A stretch of 43,368 bases of DNA, from NCBI GenBank assembly GCA_024280775.1, contig JAJRPM010000001.1, positions 1 to 43,368 on the forward strand, read 5' to 3'. Position 1 is the stretch's first letter. Every line of letters starts with the position of its first letter. The position numbers were made by a program, and so were the translations under genes. This document shows positions 4,091 through 43,368 of this stretch, piece by piece. The notes beneath the pieces are model-generated. The model was not told the DNA's origin. It ran no database searches and saw only the letters and a list, made by a program, of their open reading frames with translations. The stretch is from Candidatus Zixiibacteriota bacterium. Lineage in GTDB: Bacteria > Zixibacteria > MSB-5A5 > GN15 > JACZUZ01.

Positions 4091-7000
4091 TTGGGACGAG
4101 TGGCTATTTCTGGAGAGCCGGGAATATATCCGGTCTTTGACTATCAACTTACCGAGATTGCCCAGGCTCCACAGCCGCTTCCGCAGGTTACTCTGTCAAT
4201 TTCTCCGTCCCACACAGTTCTTCCATCTTTACGTCGAACCAGACGTCGGCAGGCAAAGATAGTTGCCGCTAGCTGGCAGAATAGAACTATCACTGTCGGC
4301 CAAAGTTATTACAAGAATCAAAGCTATGTTCCGGCTACATATGACAGTTATGCGTTCCTTGATTGGCGGCGCAATCTTGAAATGAGGCGCGAGCTTCGTA
4401 AAGGTTCATTTGATCAGATTCGCGCCAGCCAAAAGTCAGGGCCCGGTGGTCTGCGTGTCTCAATTCCTATCAAGTCCAAGACCTTTGAGTCACTCTTCGG
4501 TGAGGGTGGCGCGGGGTTGCAAGTCTCTGGTTCAAGGAGAATCTCATTCGCCGGAAACTCGAACTGGAGTGATGGTGTCACAACCATCGGTCGCGCGCAG
4601 AGCCGTTTTCCAACCCTTCGGATGGATCAGTCTTTCCAATTCGATATTGTGGGAACAATTGGTAGCAAGATTTTTGTAAAGGTTAATCAGGATTCCCGAG
4701 TAAACATTCCGCTGGCTAATCGGTTGGAGATTCGCTTCAAAGGCAGTGAAGACGATGTGATTCGTTCAATCGAAGCCGGTAACACGACCTTGTCGTTGCC
4801 CGGGGCTTCTTTGTTGCGCTATTCTTCAAGCGTCAGAGGGTTGTTTGGCATCAAGACCGAAGCCCAAATCGGTCCTTTCAATTTTGTAGGTATCGCCTCA
4901 CAGGAGAAAGCAAATACCGAACGTGCGTCAATTACCTCAGGCTCAAGCGCTCGTGGTGACACACTGCGCGACTATCGTTACCTGCGAAACAAGATGTTTG
5001 ATCTCGGGCCCAAAGATCTTTACGACAGCCCTGATGATTCGATTATTGATTTTGAGGTATACAAGAGCAAAATAGGTTCGACCAACCTCCAGGTCTTTGA
5101 CAGCGCCAGGATGTTTCTTGATCCACGCCTGGATGCAAATGGAATAGTGCGGGATAGCACAGTGAACAATGGTGGGGCGCCAGAGGGTGTTGAGATAATA
5201 CCAAAGGAAAACTACACTATTTTTAGTCGCCAACGCACTATTATCTTTGAAAGGACCCTTCCGGCGTTGGCGGACAATGTTGGCATATGGCTGAAATTGC
5301 GACGCGCTAATCCCAACGATCCCAGGGGAGCCACATACGAAATCGGCAATATTGATAGCGTGACAGTGCGTCTACTCTATATCAAAGAAAACAGGCCAAA
5401 CAACTCTTCCCCAATTGACAAGTACGAACACCGCAATATCTATCCACTATCCAACAGGCTGGGTGTAGATTGGGATAACCCCGATATCAATGCCATCGAC
5501 ATAAAAATATACCAGGGAAATGACAAAGACGAAAACGCCACCACCAGCTTGTCGAATCAGGGTAATCGCGAATACATACAATTGGTGGGGCTTGATCAGA
5601 TTAGCTCCTCGGACGCCACGCCCGACGGCAAGGCGGATTTCACCAGTAGTCTGTTCGATTTTCAGCGAAGGATAATGATTCTGCCGGCCCGGGAGCCATT
5701 CAATAGTGATACCTCATACAGCGATGAACCGGGTGACACTCTCAATACAAGAGTGCCGGGAATCTATGACGTTGAAAGAAGCATCCAGGATTGGCAGGAT
5801 GACTCTAAGTATTTCTTCGTGTTTGAATCTCGAGTGCGTTCGAACACTATTCAGCTTACCGGAGCCAATATTGTTGATGGGGGAATAGTTGTAAGAAACG
5901 GTTCGCAAGTGCTGGTTGCCGGAACTGACTATAACGTCGTGGGAAATTCAGTCCAGTTGATTTCTGACAATGCCACAGATCCTGCCGCAGATATTACCGT
6001 CGACTATGAGGTCGCGCCCCTCTTTACAGTCGAAAAGAAAACACTACTTGGAACTCGCATTGAATATCAAGGCTCTAAAAATCTCCAGGTAGGTCTAACT
6101 GCCTTGTTCAAGACTGACAAGGCTACAACCAGGAAACCTAAGGTCGGACAGGAAACCTCGAAGATGGTCGCTTATGATTTGAGCGCCGCGACGAGATTCA
6201 ATATCAATCCTCTTACGTCACTTTTTAGTTTTATCCCGGGTCTTAGTGTGAAAGGCAACTCGGCATTGTCATTGCAGGGCGAGATCGCGCGCTCTATACC
6301 GAACCCAAACGTCGACGGTGAAGCGTTTATTGATGATTTCGAAGGTTCGCGACAAAAGATTAGTCTGGGCGTCAGGCGTCGGCGCTGGTTGAGCTCTTCA
6401 CGGCCGGTTCAGATTGATCCGATGGCTACTACTCGCGCTAATCTCTACTGGTACACAACTAGTAACGGTATCCCGACGCAGCAGGTATTCAACCAGCAAG
6501 TAACAGGCTCAACTAATAGAATAAATCCGCTAAATATCGTCTACATGCCGACCACGCTGAAGGTTGATACGATTGTAGTTGACAGTTTCTTCGATACAAC
6601 CTTCGCTCCCACTGACCCTCTAATGGACACGCCGATTATTACCCTTGATAGTGTAGTGGAGCAACCTTACCACCTGGCTTCAATTGCCGCACGTAGCAAT
6701 GACAGCAAATTCAGAATGGTTGCAGTAGATACGATGCGTCCGATTGATAACTGGTCTGGAATAACCAACGGACTCCAGAAAGCAGTGTGGAACCAAACCA
6801 ATGCCGAATTACTTGAGATTCGCATGCGAGTCCGGCGAAATCCACTTCGGCCCACAGGTAACATACATTTCGATTTCGGAGAAGTCTCTGAAGACGTCAT
6901 TACAAATCGTCGCAAGGATCAGGAGGGTGAGGACAACGTATATGACCCGAACTTTGAGGATGATATTGGAATTGACAGACGCAATGACGCCGCAGAGAAA

Positions 7001-10000
7001 GTGTGGTATAAGGATGTTTTGAGTTTTCTGCCAGACACTCTAGATCCGCAAGGTGACAATTTCCCATTCGGGACTGACTCTACTAATGCTAACGAGGCTC
7101 GTGACCTGGTTGATACGAGTGGAAACGTCCGAGACGACTTGGCAAATAGCTCATTGCAAAGACTAAAGAAGATAAATGGCACTGAGAACAACCAGTCTGA
7201 CGGGACAATAAACTCTGTTGACGCTGAAATTGATCTACTCCAGTCAGTGTCCATAAACTTGAATAACAATTACTTCAGTTTCAAAGCCAGCCTTGATACC
7301 GGAGCCTTGGAGAATAACTTTTTCGTCAAGGGCTCTGAGAGGTCTGGCTGGGTGACCATGCGAATCCCGGTGCAGGACTTGAGAGTAGTTGACACTATCA
7401 TCGGCGATCCCAGCTGGACAGATATCAATCAGGTAAGAATCTGGTTTGATTCTCTGGTTGACACGACGATGATTGAAATCGCAACCATCGACCTTGTTAG
7501 TTCAAACTGGCGGGACACACTCTTGATAATGCCGGATTCTGTTAGATTAAAAATTGATTCGAACGCTGTACTCCCCACTAGAGAATCAGTTTTCAACCTA
7601 TCAGTTATCAATACTTCAGAAGATAGTGTCTACACCCCGCCGGATGGTGTAACAGGTAGCTTTGATCAAATCAATCAAATCGCAGAGCCTGAACAGTCAT
7701 TAAGGCTTAGATATGAAAACTTTATCTTTGGAGATACCGGTAAAATCACCAAACCGCAAACTGCGGTGAACTACATGGGGTATCGTGAGCTACGCATGTT
7801 CGTGCATGGTGATGCCAGTCTGGGAGCCAATCACAAGATAAATTACTATTTCCGTCTTGGAACTGATTCACTCAATTACTATGAATTCCGCACACTATTG
7901 GAGCCGGGCTGGAGCTTAAACAATGAAGTTGTGATGGACTTCAATGAAATAACAGCCCTTAAAGACAGAGGGCTCAAAGACAGCTTGATTGATCCTACTA
8001 CCGGAAGATTGAACACAGGAGATCTAAATCCACATCTTAGAGTCGTTGGCCTTCCAACAGTGCGCTCAATTCGCTACATGTCCTCCGGTGTTGTCAATGC
8101 CGATTCAACAGATATCACTGCCGGTGCGACAGGGGAAGTGTGGATTGATGAATTACGCCTGACGAATGTGAGACGAGACGCCGGAACAGCTCTCAGATTG
8201 TCTGCCAGTGGTAACATAGGTGACTTTATTTCATCCTACGGCGCCAGCGTTTCGTTTACAGACGCCTTCTATCGAGACATAGCCAGAGGAACTCGCAGAG
8301 GAAATGGCGTGTCACTCGGTAGCGGTAGCTCAGACTTGCGCTATTCATTCAATGTCAATTTCCAAATGGCGAAGTTTCTGCCCCCGAGTATGAAGGCCAG
8401 TATTCCTATTCGCCTTACTTTCAATAAATCAATACGCACCCCTCTGCTAGTGACTGCGGGGAATAGTGATATTATATTGCCTCAGGAGCGGCGCATTGAG
8501 GAGCGCACTATAAGTGAATCAAAAGGTTTCTCCATAAGAGAGAGTTTCAAGAAGAACACTAAAAATCCGCTATTTACACTGTTGCTAAACAGAGTAAGCA
8601 CAAGTTTCGACTACAATCGGTCAGAGAGCACTTCGCCGACAATTCCACGCAGTTTGACCGAGCGCTATTCGGCGAGTTTCGCCTACGATGTCCAGAAATT
8701 TCCAGAGGCTCCACCACTACCCATATTTTTCATGTTCTCGAAAGCGCCGATAATCAAACGTCTGGCGGAAACTCGCCTTCGATTATCACCAACGAATTTC
8801 CGGCTAAGAAGTAATTTTGCGCGAAGCTTGTCAGTGCGCACCCAAAACAAAGAGGGAGCAATAACTTCAAGTCATACACGCACCCTAACGACCGATATTC
8901 AAACCGGCGCCCGTTGGCTTACTATCCTAACCTCCCGGCTATCGGTTAATTTGCAAAGTGACTTACGTAACCCCGAATGGTTCAGTCTTTCCCCAAGTAA
9001 CATTCGTTTAGGGAAAATCACCCGGTTGCAACAGAGTTTCAGTCATGAATTCTCACCGACGATATTTCCGTTCCTGACTCACAAATTTTCTTTCAGTTCC
9101 GGCTATACCGAAAACCGACAGCGCGCGTCACTTACACGTGACTATCTAGTGGCTAATCCGACTGACAGTTTGCTGGAGCCCTTTGATGTTTCGCAAAATT
9201 TACGTTTCTCTGTTAGTGGAAACTTTGATTTGAAGAAATTCCTTGGCGAACCCGGCAGCGCTAGAACAACAAGCGTTGCAAGCGACAATCGGCGCCGACT
9301 AGCCGAGCGCGCCAAACAACTTCGCGAAGAACGCAGACGTCGTGCGGCGGGTGATACCTTGACTGTTGATAGCCTAAAGCAAGAGGAGAACAAAGAGCCC
9401 AAGGATGTGGGGCCTGGAGGCCCTTGGATAGGCGCCAAGCTCTCTCGCTATGGGAGACTCGGCCTGAAGAAACTGACAGGATTCATAGACCCGGTAACCG
9501 CAAGTTTCGATAAGAGCCAGAGTTTACAGCGGAATGGTTTGCGTTACCGTCCGGGAGCGAAATTCCGTTTTGGGTTTTCTGATAATCTGGAAGTGCCGGT
9601 AGTGGGGGTCAATCGCCAGACAAACAACATGTCCGAGTCTGAAGGATGGCGACTAGGATCTGGAACTCGTCTATTTGGTGGCGGTATCACTACGCGTGTC
9701 GATATTTCGGAAACACGAGCTACTACTAGCCCTTCCACCGGCGCTGGTAACATCTCAATAGACAGAAGCTGGCCGAGGCTGACGATTACAATTCGTGAAT
9801 TCCGCACCTTCAATAATATATGGGGACTGCGCTTCTTACAGGGGCAACTCAACGCCTTGATTCGCCGGTTCGGGCCGCAGACTTCTTATGCGCGTCGCAC
9901 CACCGAGAGAATTGATCGTGCAACAGGGTTCGCAACATCTCGCACCGAATCAATCGACCGTGGTCCTTTTCTTGGCGTGACAATCCCTATCAGGCGTTCG

Positions 10001-10420
10001 TTGAACATTACCGCCAGGCTTGAAAAAAGTAAGTCCCTACGTGAATCGTTCCTCAAGACTGGCGCTCTGTCAAACTCAAGTCGCGACAATAACAGCACCT
10101 TGCGGCTTTCTACACAATATAGTTTCCGCTCGCCGAATGGTATCTGGTTGCCCATTTTTGGAAAAGTTAAACTCAACTCAACGGTGTCAATGAAGGTGGA
10201 TGTGCTGAAGCGAGTCAATGAGACCGAAGTGGCCGGCTCCGATGGAGAATTTTCACCTAGCTCTAAACGTGAGACTTTTACCGTGAGCACTACCATAAAC
10301 TACTCTTTCTCGACACAAGTGAGAGGTGGAATGACTGGAACCTGGACAGACACCAAGAGCCGGTCACGGCCGGGAACCCACACTAGAGAACTAAGAATTT
10401 TTGCAGAGATGCGCTTCTAG
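4091..10420 (+). CDS. sprA: SprA family outer-membrane translocon protein (type IX secretion-like)
   Basis: SprA forms the giant outer-membrane barrel through which type IX secretion substrates pass in Bacteroidota, and relatives occur across the FCB group. The 2109 residues from the first canonical codon (TTG) are near the usual 2300-2500. Family hallmarks include FIDDFEGSRQKISLG near residue 745, beta-rich repeats with alternating polar and aromatic residues, long Asp/Asn-rich plug regions, and a C-terminal strand ending in an aromatic residue (LRIFAEMRF). A charged Arg/Lys/Glu-rich segment lies at about residues 1735-1775. The true start is probably upstream because the signal peptide precedes 4091. 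No other type IX genes (gldKLMN, porV, sov accessories) lie in the window. Assignment to the family is firm, but its role in this organism is inferred. Confidence 0.9.
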   Translation: MGRVAISGEPGIYPVFDYQLTEIAQAPQPLPQVTLSISPSHTVLPSLRRTRRRQAKIVAASWQNRTITVGQSYYKNQSYVPATYDSYAFLDWRRNLEMRRELRKGSFDQIRASQKSGPGGLRVSIPIKSKTFESLFGEGGAGLQVSGSRRISFAGNSNWSDGVTTIGRAQSRFPTLRMDQSFQFDIVGTIGSKIFVKVNQDSRVNIPLANRLEIRFKGSEDDVIRSIEAGNTTLSLPGASLLRYSSSVRGLFGIKTEAQIGPFNFVGIASQEKANTERASITSGSSARGDTLRDYRYLRNKMFDLGPKDLYDSPDDSIIDFEVYKSKIGSTNLQVFDSARMFLDPRLDANGIVRDSTVNNGGAPEGVEIIPKENYTIFSRQRTIIFERTLPALADNVGIWLKLRRANPNDPRGATYEIGNIDSVTVRLLYIKENRPNNSSPIDKYEHRNIYPLSNRLGVDWDNPDINAIDIKIYQGNDKDENATTSLSNQGNREYIQLVGLDQISSSDATPDGKADFTSSLFDFQRRIMILPAREPFNSDTSYSDEPGDTLNTRVPGIYDVERSIQDWQDDSKYFFVFESRVRSNTIQLTGANIVDGGIVVRNGSQVLVAGTDYNVVGNSVQLISDNATDPAADITVDYEVAPLFTVEKKTLLGTRIEYQGSKNLQVGLTALFKTDKATTRKPKVGQETSKMVAYDLSAATRFNINPLTSLFSFIPGLSVKGNSALSLQGEIARSIPNPNVDGEAFIDDFEGSRQKISLGVRRRRWLSSSRPVQIDPMATTRANLYWYTTSNGIPTQQVFNQQVTGSTNRINPLNIVYMPTTLKVDTIVVDSFFDTTFAPTDPLMDTPIITLDSVVEQPYHLASIAARSNDSKFRMVAVDTMRPIDNWSGITNGLQKAVWNQTNAELLEIRMRVRRNPLRPTGNIHFDFGEVSEDVITNRRKDQEGEDNVYDPNFEDDIGIDRRNDAAEKVWYKDVLSFLPDTLDPQGDNFPFGTDSTNANEARDLVDTSGNVRDDLANSSLQRLKKINGTENNQSDGTINSVDAEIDLLQSVSINLNNNYFSFKASLDTGALENNFFVKGSERSGWVTMRIPVQDLRVVDTIIGDPSWTDINQVRIWFDSLVDTTMIEIATIDLVSSNWRDTLLIMPDSVRLKIDSNAVLPTRESVFNLSVINTSEDSVYTPPDGVTGSFDQINQIAEPEQSLRLRYENFIFGDTGKITKPQTAVNYMGYRELRMFVHGDASLGANHKINYYFRLGTDSLNYYEFRTLLEPGWSLNNEVVMDFNEITALKDRGLKDSLIDPTTGRLNTGDLNPHLRVVGLPTVRSIRYMSSGVVNADSTDITAGATGEVWIDELRLTNVRRDAGTALRLSASGNIGDFISSYGASVSFTDAFYRDIARGTRRGNGVSLGSGSSDLRYSFNVNFQMAKFLPPSMKASIPIRLTFNKSIRTPLLVTAGNSDIILPQERRIEERTISESKGFSIRESFKKNTKNPLFTLLLNRVSTSFDYNRSESTSPTIPRSLTERYSASFAYDVQKFPEAPPLPIFFMFSKAPIIKRLAETRLRLSPTNFRLRSNFARSLSVRTQNKEGAITSSHTRTLTTDIQTGARWLTILTSRLSVNLQSDLRNPEWFSLSPSNIRLGKITRLQQSFSHEFSPTIFPFLTHKFSFSSGYTENRQRASLTRDYLVANPTDSLLEPFDVSQNLRFSVSGNFDLKKFLGEPGSARTTSVASDNRRRLAERAKQLREERRRRAAGDTLTVDSLKQEENKEPKDVGPGGPWIGAKLSRYGRLGLKKLTGFIDPVTASFDKSQSLQRNGLRYRPGAKFRFGFSDNLEVPVVGVNRQTNNMSESEGWRLGSGTRLFGGGITTRVDISETRATTSPSTGAGNISIDRSWPRLTITIREFRTFNNIWGLRFLQGQLNALIRRFGPQTSYARRTTERIDRATGFATSRTESIDRGPFLGVTIPIRRSLNITARLEKSKSLRESFLKTGALSNSSRDNNSTLRLSTQYSFRSPNGIWLPIFGKVKLNSTVSMKVDVLKRVNETEVAGSDGEFSPSSKRETFTVSTTINYSFSTQVRGGMTGTWTDTKSRSRPGTHTRELRIFAEMRF

Positions 10421-38998: not shown

Positions 38999-41248
38999 AT
39001 GAACTACGGCCCAAACATAGAATCCGGTTTGAGATCAATTGGAGTGTTGCTGGCAACGGCGCTTCTAGCCGCGGGGGTTGCTACCAATGTGACCAACGCT
39101 GCCGCCAAATCGGTTAGCAAAGTCAGGGTAACTCCTGTAGAGAAAGAACACTATGCCCAGATTTATTCAGGCGAGTTTGATGTCGTAGAATTCGGTGACT
39201 CCGAGTTTGTTATTTACGCCGATGCTGACCAGCAGCTAAGACTGCAGGAGTTGGGGATTCCGTTTACCGTTGAGATTGCAGATATGCAGTCTTTCTACCG
39301 CGATCGTTTCTTGGCTGAGCAACCTCTTCAAGGTGGCGCGCAGGTTAGTACTATGGGCGGCTACGAAACATTCTCGGAAATTGTCGCTCACATGGATTCG
39401 ACTGCGGCTGCCAATCCTACAATTATGACTTCAAAGTTCAGTATTGGACAATCTGTCGAGGGACGCGATTTATGGGTCGTGAAGATTTCTGATAATCCCG
39501 GCGTGGATGAGAGCGAGCCTGAAGTGTTCTTTATCTCGTTGTGTCACGCGCGAGAGCCTGCCGGAGCCGCCGTTTCGCTCGCCACTATGGATTACCTGGT
39601 TTCCAACTACGGTACCGATCCTTTTGTGACGAACCTTGTCGATACTAGAGAAATATACATTCTCCCGGTTTATAATCCCGATGGTTACGTTTACAATGAG
39701 ACGACAAACCCGACCGGTGGCGGGTTGTGGCGGAGGAATCGTCGCCCGCACACTAATGCAGTGGATACCGGAGTTGATTTGAATCGTAACTATGGCAGTC
39801 AATGGGGTTATAACGATATAGGCAGTTCATCGGCAAGCAACTCACAAACATACCGTGGCACAGGGCCGTTCTCTGAACCTGAAACTCAAGCGGTTAGCAA
39901 TTATATTATCTCTCGCAATTTCTCTTTCATTCATAATCAGCATTCGTATTCGAATTTGGAGTTATGGCCGGTGGGTTATGATAACTTCTTTACCGTTGAT
40001 GAGGATGTCTTTCAGTTGATTGGTGATTCCTTGACTAAGGATAACGGCTATGTGGCGTCAATTGGTTGGGATTTGTATCCAACCAATGGCGAGGCTGATG
40101 ATTGGGCCTATTCGCAATTGAATATTCCTTCCTTTACTTCTGAGATTGGTAACAATGTCGACGGATTTTGGGCGGCTCCATCACGGATACCTACGCTTAT
40201 TGCTGAGAATATTCCGCCCAACCTTTTCATTATGAGCATTGCTGATAATCCTCGCCGGGTAGGCCCGCCACGCGCTCCGGTTCTTGCATCTGCGGCAGAT
40301 ACTTCGCTAACAGGCAACATAAGCTTGTCATGGGCGGACAATGACCTTTACAATCCCGGTGTGTCATATGATGTAACAGAACTGACCGGATACGCTCGAC
40401 TGACTGACGATGCAGAGGTTGATAACGGTTACTGGCAGACCGAAAAGTTTTCTTTGACCAGCGCCCGGGTGCATAGTGGTGTTTCTTCATGGACCGCCAA
40501 CAGTGTAAATCGCGGCTACCATTGGCTTACATCGATTACACCGGTTCGCGTCGTGGCCAATGACTCGTTGAAATTCTGGACCTGGTATGACATTGAGACT
40601 GATTGGGACTATTTCTATGTTCAGATTTCCACCGATGGCGGGTTGACCTATGTAAACGAGACTCATCCGACTGCAACAACCAATACCAATCCCAACGGTC
40701 AGAACCGGGGCAATGGAATCACTGGTCCTTCCGGTGGTTGGGTGGAGTTGGCGTTTGATTTGAACGCCTATGTCGGTCAGCAAATCTACTTGCGTTTAGC
40801 GTATTTTACCGATCTGGGGTTCTTGCAAGAGGGTATTTATATCGATGATATTAACCTCGTGGATTTCTATGCTTCCTCGGCGCCTGCTGCTTCAGGTGTT
40901 ACGCTTACTAATGTTGACTTAACGGGCAAAACGGCCGGTGATTATTCTTACATTGTGCAGTCTATCGACGCTGAGAATCAGACTGGTAGAAACTCCAATA
41001 TCGTTTCAGTGACTGTTGACCTGGGTTGTTGTGATACACCTGGTGACGCTACTAATGATGGCAGTTTTAATATCGCTGATGTTACTTTTGGCATTGCGCG
41101 GATATTCAATGATGGATCGGCGCCTGCTTGTCAGGATGAAGCGGATGCTAATGGGGATAATTCTTACAATATCGCGGATGTTACCTATGGTATCTCGCGG
41201 ATATTTGGAAGTGGCCCGGCGCCGATTTGTGGTACGACCGGAATGTAA
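38999..41248 (+). CDS. Secreted M14 zinc carboxypeptidase with C-terminal dockerin
   Basis: The 749-residue exported protein has a signal segment (about 12-35), a propeptide-like region and an M14 carboxypeptidase domain. Zinc ligands are His183 and Glu186 (HAREP) and His315 (NQHS), and the catalytic Glu382 lies in TSEIGN. DLNRNYG is a further family motif. A beta-sandwich region (about 455-640) with MAM-like or immune-inhibitor-like features (IYLRLAYFTD, IYIDDINLVD) follows. The C-terminus is a type I dockerin with two calcium-binding repeats, GDATNDGSFNIADVTFGI and DANGDNSYNIADVTYGI. The domain order suggests secretion and anchoring through cohesin-like partners, but no cohesin was found here. 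Confidence 0.95.
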   Translation: MNYGPNIESGLRSIGVLLATALLAAGVATNVTNAAAKSVSKVRVTPVEKEHYAQIYSGEFDVVEFGDSEFVIYADADQQLRLQELGIPFTVEIADMQSFYRDRFLAEQPLQGGAQVSTMGGYETFSEIVAHMDSTAAANPTIMTSKFSIGQSVEGRDLWVVKISDNPGVDESEPEVFFISLCHAREPAGAAVSLATMDYLVSNYGTDPFVTNLVDTREIYILPVYNPDGYVYNETTNPTGGGLWRRNRRPHTNAVDTGVDLNRNYGSQWGYNDIGSSSASNSQTYRGTGPFSEPETQAVSNYIISRNFSFIHNQHSYSNLELWPVGYDNFFTVDEDVFQLIGDSLTKDNGYVASIGWDLYPTNGEADDWAYSQLNIPSFTSEIGNNVDGFWAAPSRIPTLIAENIPPNLFIMSIADNPRRVGPPRAPVLASAADTSLTGNISLSWADNDLYNPGVSYDVTELTGYARLTDDAEVDNGYWQTEKFSLTSARVHSGVSSWTANSVNRGYHWLTSITPVRVVANDSLKFWTWYDIETDWDYFYVQISTDGGLTYVNETHPTATTNTNPNGQNRGNGITGPSGGWVELAFDLNAYVGQQIYLRLAYFTDLGFLQEGIYIDDINLVDFYASSAPAASGVTLTNVDLTGKTAGDYSYIVQSIDAENQTGRNSNIVSVTVDLGCCDTPGDATNDGSFNIADVTFGIARIFNDGSAPACQDEADANGDNSYNIADVTYGISRIFGSGPAPICGTTGM

Positions 41249-41451: not shown

Positions 41452-41529
41452 GCGTCAGTACTTCCGCGCCCTTGGAGAGATCGCAAGGGTATTTAACATT
41501 TCCAATAACTTTCGTCCTGGAGGTCATCC

Positions 41530-43239
41530 ATGCGTAGAGTCGATTCCCTCTTTACACGCTGTTTCATGACAATGTGTCTCGTTAGTATTTGCGCGGCAAC
41601 TGTAAACGCTGACCCTTTTCGATTGCTACATCAGGGCCGTTTGCTGGATGATGTCGGTGTCCCTGTCGGTGGGACATATGAGCTGACCTATCGGATTTAC
41701 ACCGATTCGACTGGTGGGACTTTGCTCTGGGAAGAGGTTCAGTTAGTCACGGTCACAAATGGACTGTATAGCGCTCAACTTGGTTCTGTAGTTCCGCTTG
41801 ATTTCAGCGTGTTTGACCTTCGGCCGGATTCTCTCTGGCTGGAGATTCAAGTCAACGTTGATCCGCCGCTCTTCCCACGCACACGGCTGACAGCTACACC
41901 GCTCTCGGCAGTCTCGGCGAGTATTCGTGGAGATATACATTCCGCTGCAGGCCAGCTCTTCATTCTTGATTCGTTGGGAGATACCACAATCTACCTAGAT
42001 GGCAAAGGAATTATTACTAAGAAACCTCCGCCAGATGGCACACGAAGTATTCTTATTGGGGTAGCTGACAGCGTTAGTCTCATTAGAGTCACACACACGA
42101 ACGAAGCGTTGGGGACTGGAGTCATAGTAGATTTGGTGGCGGGACTTCCGCCAGGTGAGCCAGTCACTCGAACCATCGAGCTACCGCCGGGTCGATTGAG
42201 TATGGATAATGTCGGGGCCGGTGGAATCGATACCACAAGAATGGTTGAAGTAGTTTCATACTCAGACGGTGGGTTTGTTGCTTTGTACGATTCTCTTGGG
42301 GACACTTCTGTTTACCTTGATGGTTCAAAGGGAGGTAAGGTGTCGTTGATAGGGTTTGGTCCCTTTAGTAGGTCTCAGTTTGGCCCTGGAGGTTTGCGAA
42401 TAATCGACTCTCTAGGAGACACCACAGTCATTGTAGATGGAGCAAACGGTGGATTTATCAGACTACAGGAAAAGGTAGAGAACGGACTGGGCGAAGTGTC
42501 CACGCAAACTGTCGTATTGGACATGGAGCGTTTTGAGAGGGGGACTATTGGACCCGGCGGCTCTGTTGGCGGTTCTATTAAACTCGGGTATGACGAATTC
42601 TCATTGGTAGACACAACCGGAGACACAGTTTTTATCTGGGACGGTGACGGTAACCTTCGCTCACTTGGGAAAAAGGGTTATGACTACTACATCTCAAAAG
42701 GCGAAGTGGGAATGGTCAGCAACAGCGGAGATTCACTATGGAATGTTGATTCACTGGGGCATGTTTTTGCGAAGTCAACGATTCGTATTGGCGCCAGTTT
42801 TGATGAGACAATTGCGCTTAATGTCGCTGGAGATATTTGCTATACAGGTACAATCGGCGCCTGTTCAGACGAGCGCTATAAGAAAGACATAACGCCATTG
42901 CAAGGTGCGCTCGAAACTGTATCGAAACTTGAGGGTGTGAATTACAATTGGAGACTGGACGAGTTTCCGGAGAAGAAATTCAGCGAAAGGCGACAGATTG
43001 GCCTCATTGCGCAGGATGTTTTGACAGTAGTTCCAGAAGTGGTGAGCGCCGATAAAAGAGGGTTCTATAGTATTGATTACAGCAAACTGACACCTCTGTT
43101 GCTTGAGGCCATCAAAGAGCTTAAGTCTGAGAATGATTCCAAGGATGGGCAAATCGAGGAACTCAGAGCCAGAGTTCAGAAGCTTGAAGAGCTTGTACAA
43201 ACGGTTCTTGTTAGAGCAGATGCTGGCGTGGGACAATAA
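41530..43239 (+). CDS. Secreted fibre-like protein with repeated GDT modules and S74 chaperone domain
   Basis: The 569-residue protein begins with a signal peptide (about 1-27), followed by a beta-rich N-terminal domain (FRLLHQGRLLDDVGVPVGGTY, about 30-135) seen in secreted proteins of uncertain function. A module with core DSLGDTTxxLDG recurs at residues 147, 254, 293 and 361 with changes, suggesting a beta-helical stalk. The C-terminal S74 domain starts at SDERYKKDI with the candidate catalytic Ser446 and includes IGLIAQDV. It ends with a coiled coil (about 527-562). S74 domains trimerise and then cleave themselves from phage tail spikes and some cellular proteins. No phage genes are nearby. 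Confidence 0.88.
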   Translation: MRRVDSLFTRCFMTMCLVSICAATVNADPFRLLHQGRLLDDVGVPVGGTYELTYRIYTDSTGGTLLWEEVQLVTVTNGLYSAQLGSVVPLDFSVFDLRPDSLWLEIQVNVDPPLFPRTRLTATPLSAVSASIRGDIHSAAGQLFILDSLGDTTIYLDGKGIITKKPPPDGTRSILIGVADSVSLIRVTHTNEALGTGVIVDLVAGLPPGEPVTRTIELPPGRLSMDNVGAGGIDTTRMVEVVSYSDGGFVALYDSLGDTSVYLDGSKGGKVSLIGFGPFSRSQFGPGGLRIIDSLGDTTVIVDGANGGFIRLQEKVENGLGEVSTQTVVLDMERFERGTIGPGGSVGGSIKLGYDEFSLVDTTGDTVFIWDGDGNLRSLGKKGYDYYISKGEVGMVSNSGDSLWNVDSLGHVFAKSTIRIGASFDETIALNVAGDICYTGTIGACSDERYKKDITPLQGALETVSKLEGVNYNWRLDEFPEKKFSERRQIGLIAQDVLTVVPEVVSADKRGFYSIDYSKLTPLLLEAIKELKSENDSKDGQIEELRARVQKLEELVQTVLVRADAGVGQ

Positions 43240-43244
43240 AACAA

Positions 43245-43323
<79 letters not shown>

Positions 43324-43368
43324 ATATGCTTGTGTGTGGCGGGGCGCTCTGCCCAGCGCGAACATAAG

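Follow-up and report, generated by a model that had tools for sequence, protein, structure and literature searches.

The fibre gene at the right end of the window

The window analysed here (43,368 nucleotides) is the whole of contig C4 of a 3.17-Mb assembly that is 97% complete. Towards its right end lies a forward-strand open reading frame of 569 aa that begins with ATG at 41530 and runs through its stop codon at 43239, exactly the coordinates, strand and frame given in the initial annotation. The GC content of the gene (0.487) equals that of the window. The features of the gene and its immediate surroundings are as follows.

41519..41524, + strand: ribosome-binding site GGAGGT, 5 nt 5' of the ATG, read from the sequence
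41530..43239, + strand: fibre gene, 569 aa, from the ORF and Pfam Peptidase_S74
41530..41610, + strand: Sec signal peptide, residues 1–27, from sequence and hydropathy
41611..41949, + strand: N-terminal MAT-type beta domain, residues 28 to ~135, plus a short linker (~110 aa), from an alignment of 20 homologues and profile matches in Bdellovibrio
41950..42780, + strand: shaft, residues 141–417, lineage-specific, with a homologous shaft in 1 of 97 other relatives
41968..41985, + strand: DSLGDT motif 1, residues 147–152
42289..42306, + strand: DSLGDT motif 2, residues 254–259
42406..42423, + strand: DSLGDT motif 3, residues 293–298
42610..42627, + strand: DTTGDT, degenerate motif 4, residues 361–366
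42748..42765, + strand: DSLGHV, partial motif 5, residues 407–412
42781..42825, + strand: divergent capping-loop segment IRIGASFDETIALNV, where relatives have VGIGTxxPxxxL, from the alignment
42838..42864, + strand: Cys437-x7-Cys445, Cys445 being the final residue ahead of the scissile bond
42865..43044, + strand: Peptidase_S74 domain, with nucleophile Ser446 at 42865–42867 and Lys451 at 42880–42882, from Pfam, invariance and fold matches to 7dc3, 3gud and 3gw6
43078..43221, + strand: C-terminal helix or coiled coil, residues 517–564, from the AlphaFold model (block pLDDT 94–97 over most of it)
43228..43368, no strand: exact 141-bp overlap with the end of contig C14 (C14 read in reverse)
43244..43319, − strand: tRNA-Arg(tct), convergent with the fibre gene, from ARAGORN

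An export signal, an S74 domain and a terminal coiled coil had been proposed for this protein at the outset, and each is recovered here. The signal peptide starts with MRR, has a hydrophobic core at about residues 11–22 and is predicted to be cleaved after residue 27, between VNA and D; beyond it, hydropathy gives no further transmembrane-like segment. Pfam PF13884 (Peptidase_S74) matches residues 446–505 (E=1e-16, 61 bits against a cut-off of 22), and the remaining strong matches to the protein are to phage tail fibres, likewise aligning at its C-terminal end. The sequence SDERYK at 446–451 is the SDxxxK motif of S74, within which Ser446, Asp447 and Lys451 are invariant among 56 aligned sequences. 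An AlphaFold model of residues 404–569 that draws on these 56 aligned sequences is confident, with a mean pLDDT of 85.6, and predicts the terminal helix at 517–564, while single-sequence modelling of the full protein gave a mean pLDDT of 35.8 and no usable shaft model.

The top PDB match of the S74 model is the MYRF ICA (7dc3; E=9e-7, TM 0.77 by target); the phage chaperones 3gud and 3gw6 come next. The MYRF ICA is therefore the closest solved fold and carries the same dyad, although MYRF is a eukaryotic membrane transcription factor whose N-terminal parts are unrelated to the fibre. Ser446 and Lys451 correspond in position to S587/K592 of MYRF and S911/K916 of endoNF, Ser/Lys dyads of which both members are required for cleavage, and in MYRF cleavage depends on the trimer (PMC8326128); in the Bdellovibrio fibre Bd3182, the Ser of the SDxxxK motif was mutated (PMC10769870). 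The dyad of the window's protein is intact, and S74 autocleavage most likely takes place at Ser446. Because the dyad matches that of MYRF and cleavage of MYRF is trimer-dependent, we infer that release of the chaperone would likewise be gated by trimer formation.

Relationship to the MAT fibres of Bdellovibrio

The region that follows the signal peptide, which we will refer to as the N-domain, has no match in the PDB. However, a profile of the N-domains of this phylum finds matches in 20 of 21 genomes of the genus Bdellovibrio, with up to 13 per genome and a best E value of 1.2e-9, the similarity lying mainly across the first ~60 positions. In all 24 Bdellovibrio loci examined the matching domain directly follows a signal-peptide-like start. 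The Bdellovibrio fibre closest to that of the window (L005) has an S74 domain 39% identical to the window's and matches the solved MAT tips 8ojn and 8ond, from which it follows that the Bdellovibrio fibres bearing this N-domain are MATs. In Bdellovibrio the MAT superfamily comprises 13 members with S74 and 8 without it, and in every one of them a ~130-aa N-domain comes after the signal peptide (PMC10769870). The window's protein has the same order of parts, a signal peptide (residues 1–27) followed by a beta-rich N-domain (28–135) and, at the C-terminal end, S74 with SDxxxK.

Judged on its sequence, therefore, the fibre is MAT-like, a kind already published for Bdellovibrio. It shares with the MATs of B. 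bacteriovorus (e.g. Bd3182) the signal peptide, the homologous beta-rich N-domain, the long, presumably beta-rich shaft, the terminal S74 domain with SDxxxK and the coiled coil, and the source genome, like that of Bdellovibrio, encodes many paralogues with and without S74. It differs in its phylum, its length (569 aa against ~1000), its DSLGDT shaft and its capping loop IRIGASFDETIAL, which has no proline, a point against the assignment, whereas several relatives have VGIGTxxPxxxL and the MAT consensus is V-G-G/N-x-x-x-P-x-x-x-L.

The combination of N-domain and S74 is common in the phylum. S74 occurs in 81 of 132 genomes, with up to 12 per genome, and homologues of the N-domain and/or S74 are present in all 60 of the nearest genomes. 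The source genome encodes eight N-domain proteins, two with S74 (the window's fibre and one at C17:129.7–131.5 kb) and six without, five of which form one array on contig C15. Several of the five proteins in this array (G000 C15, L191:4601–12762) end in a common ~140-aa beta domain with the signature DEPGIA...YTFRLEG. These end domains are possibly C1q/TNF-like tips; compared with the PDB, the putative TNF-like tips of the S74-less paralogues gave nothing significant.

Taking together the architecture, the conserved dyad, the predicted S74 fold, the cellular context described below and the homology that both end domains share with Bdellovibrio fibres, we propose that this chromosomal gene very probably encodes a trimeric fibre that is exported by the Sec pathway and belongs to the MAT kind. 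The parts of this reading that we infer are trimerisation, cleavage, location at the surface, adhesion and a ligand. In this model the chain would pass the inner membrane via its signal peptide, and three chains would join at their C-terminal ends, by the S74 domain and the coiled coil, which would template an intertwined beta shaft. Once the trimer had formed, Ser446 with Lys451 would cut the Cys445–Ser446 bond, which would release a chaperone of ~14 kDa and leave a mature fibre of ~44 kDa per chain; the N-terminal domain would anchor this fibre to the envelope and the exposed tip would bind a ligand.

Alternatively, the exported S74 fibre could have a structural role, as matrix or cell-cell scaffold, or lie in the periplasm, and not be a ligand-binding adhesin of the outer surface. 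In favour of this, the protein has no recognisable ligand-binding domain other than the shaft tip, and among the ORFs of the window no gene for a secretion partner or an outer-membrane anchor adjoins it. However, MAT relatives have been detected on the predator surface and one of them binds glycans (PMC10769870), and the copy numbers and shaft diversity among genomes fit recognition. We consider the structural or periplasmic role unlikely and prefer that of a surface fibre of the MAT kind.

The shaft bears on a further proposal of the initial annotation, that the GDT repeats could be stalk turns whose number tunes the length of the fibre. The three exact and two degenerate DSLGDT motifs are not chance occurrences, because no 6-mer reached three occurrences in any of 2000 composition shuffles of the protein. 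They do not form a tandem array, however: their spacings are 107, 39, 68 and ~46 aa, no direct DNA repeats were found in the fibre gene, and TRF reports only one 18-bp doublet. Because the spacing is irregular and a DNA repeat is absent, the motifs are more likely old and diverged, and local beta-hairpin motifs (FxLxDSLGDTTIxLDG) are the better description of them. Motif number does vary between relatives (about 4–5 in the window, 3 of the strict motif in G015, 2 in the G003 gene, which is partial, and 1 in G054), but 96 of the 97 relatives have no homologous shaft, and in other members the whole shaft is replaced, with YadA-head-like IGGGxxN or SNLGSSGEDGV repeats lying between the same two ends. 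With so few, irregularly spaced motifs and such relatives, a length ruler is very unlikely, and the regular stalk turns are not upheld.

Cellular context and comparison with phage fibres

Since S74 is a hallmark of phage tails, the gene could belong to a prophage or the remains of a phage and encode its tail fibre, at a contig end and beside a tRNA gene. The tRNA-Arg gene, a common type of integration site, lies 5 bp downstream. To the left, however, there are 41 kb of cellular genes, and the fibre itself carries a signal peptide. To the right, the 141-bp identity with the end of C14 is the length expected of a k-mer overlap between adjoining contigs, so the sequence very likely continues into C14, and the order past the right edge is then very likely fibre, tRNA-Arg, DoxX, a short variable stretch, RdgB, MurI, amidase and SmpB (the last two named from their sequence and not by a tool). 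The order fibre, tRNA-Arg, DoxX, RdgB recurs in G003, a genome of the same family; in G001, of the same genus, a large dockerin-type protein occupies the fibre's place. The flanking proteins shown for both sides of the fibre gene, including those on C14, had no match to phage structural families. That no phage genes adjoin the fibre, as had been claimed for the window, thus extends past its right edge, where the C14 flank is cellular with no recognisable phage gene. Among the best 25 of 92 PHROG families in the flanks of relatives there was no capsid, portal or terminase, and the sole member of the tail category was apparently another such fibre (L045:10449–11504).

We considered whether the second copy of the tRNA-Arg gene, on C14, is a sign of integration, and rejected this, as the copy is the 141-bp assembly overlap of the two contig ends. 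A general association of fibre and tRNA genes was also rejected, since most of 21 neighbourhoods examined have no tRNA gene. In G015 (C23, L038:4877–11278) two tRNA-Ser(gct) genes 6.3 kb apart flank two fibre genes and a racemase-like gene. Between tRNA-Arg/DoxX and RdgB on C14 (L098:4979–6753) lie two genes that are candidates for defence, PDC-M36A, which a frameshift splits, and PDC-M36B, and the equivalent spot in G001 (L099:5414–7432) holds an OLD-like ATPase; together these make the stretch look like a variable defence spot.

Some other features of the surroundings may be recorded here. The neighbouring M14 peptidase carries a C-terminal dockerin-like double module (window 41003–41245), which is found at 76 places in the source genome and 65–74 in relatives of the family, but G015 has 9 matches; cohesin-domain PF00963 has 8 matches in the source genome. 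The 2109-aa protein at 4091–10420 of the window presumably resembles SprA of the type IX secretion system, and the fibre's C-terminus has no obvious type IX sorting domain. The SprA-like gene and the many dockerin-like modules point tentatively to a phylum of the FCB group, such as Zixibacteria.

The comparison of cell-encoded with viral proteins points the same way. Among 28 S74 ORFs from related genomes that are complete at the 5' end, a signal-peptide-like start is combined with the N-domain in 25, and the other three look broken or interrupted, whereas among IMG/VR viral S74 ORFs the N-domain occurs in 0 of 91 and a signal-peptide-like start in 2 of 40 (Fisher p 1e-15 and 4e-13 respectively, both sets being drawn by similarity to the window's fibre protein). 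In an S74 tree based on few columns, cell and viral sequences are largely separate (2 changes against ~29 in shuffles). Among 50,697 phage records nothing matches the N-domain, and in viral contigs, where a closer subset of sequences served as query, it was confirmed in only eight. Of these contigs, two short ones that were read are genuine phage with capsid or portal genes, and a third has no phage structural gene within the part read.

The presence of N-domain proteins in a few viral contigs that bear terminase, portal and capsid genes is a point in favour of a phage origin. In the phage contigs at L081:7932–9260 and L084:3617–5449, proteins with a signal peptide and N-domain lie beside capsid genes, each of their genes preceded by a conserved gene of ~200 aa with an IDSGGG start; these N-domain genes look like a moron borrowed from cells. 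Phage S74 proteins proper (endoNF of K1F, the T5 L-shaped fibre, T4-like distal fibres) share with the window's fibre the S74 intramolecular chaperone and the Ser/Lys dyad, but lack the signal peptide, the N-domain and the Cys pair described below. On cellular context, signal peptide and N-domain we reject the identification as a phage tail fibre, which is extremely unlikely. The initial annotation is sustained in its picture of a cell-encoded, Sec-exported protein with a phage-type S74 chaperone, an intact dyad and no phage structural genes on its flanks; its stalk turns fall away, and the reading as a sheath fibre is not borne out.

A cysteine pair at the predicted cleavage site

Relative to the scissile bond, the two cysteines of the predicted mature fibre, Cys437 and Cys445, stand at positions −9 and −1. 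Of 32 cell-encoded S74 proteins 11 have the pair, but none of 84 viral ones does (p 1.6e-7, uncorrected for relatedness), and in the S74 proteins compared, Cys at −1 is always accompanied by Cys at −9. In L005, the S74 fibre of Bdellovibrio introduced above, the pair is missing. At the DNA level, a degenerate pattern encoding C-x-T-G-x-I-G-x-C-S-D gave no match in 2.9 million viral contigs; in the phylum the pattern has 14 matches in 12 of 129 genomes, all 14 of them S74 reading frames, and its reversed control has none in the same 129 genomes. The Cys-x7-Cys pattern spans several families of the phylum, and a Cys-x7-Cys that ends exactly at the scissile bond is a new element of cell-encoded S74 fibres.

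The simplest reading is that Cys437 and Cys445 plausibly form a disulfide, within or between chains, at the mature tip; the pair may alternatively be a metal site or a chance ancestral trait. More tentatively, and with the odds somewhat against it, we suggest that the two cysteines, which bracket the last turn before the cut, act as a clasp, in which a disulfide formed after cleavage in the oxidising periplasm would lock the frayed tip of the trimer and so replace the lost chaperone. If this is true, such a disulfide would be unavailable to phage fibres, whose folding takes place in the reducing cytoplasm. The pair is a simple feature by which exported S74 fibres differ from those of phages, and one open to testing.

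MAT-like fibres, until now familiar chiefly from prey recognition by Bdellovibrio, are on this evidence a common repertoire in another phylum, in which a single N-terminal module is combined with a wide variety of shafts and tips.
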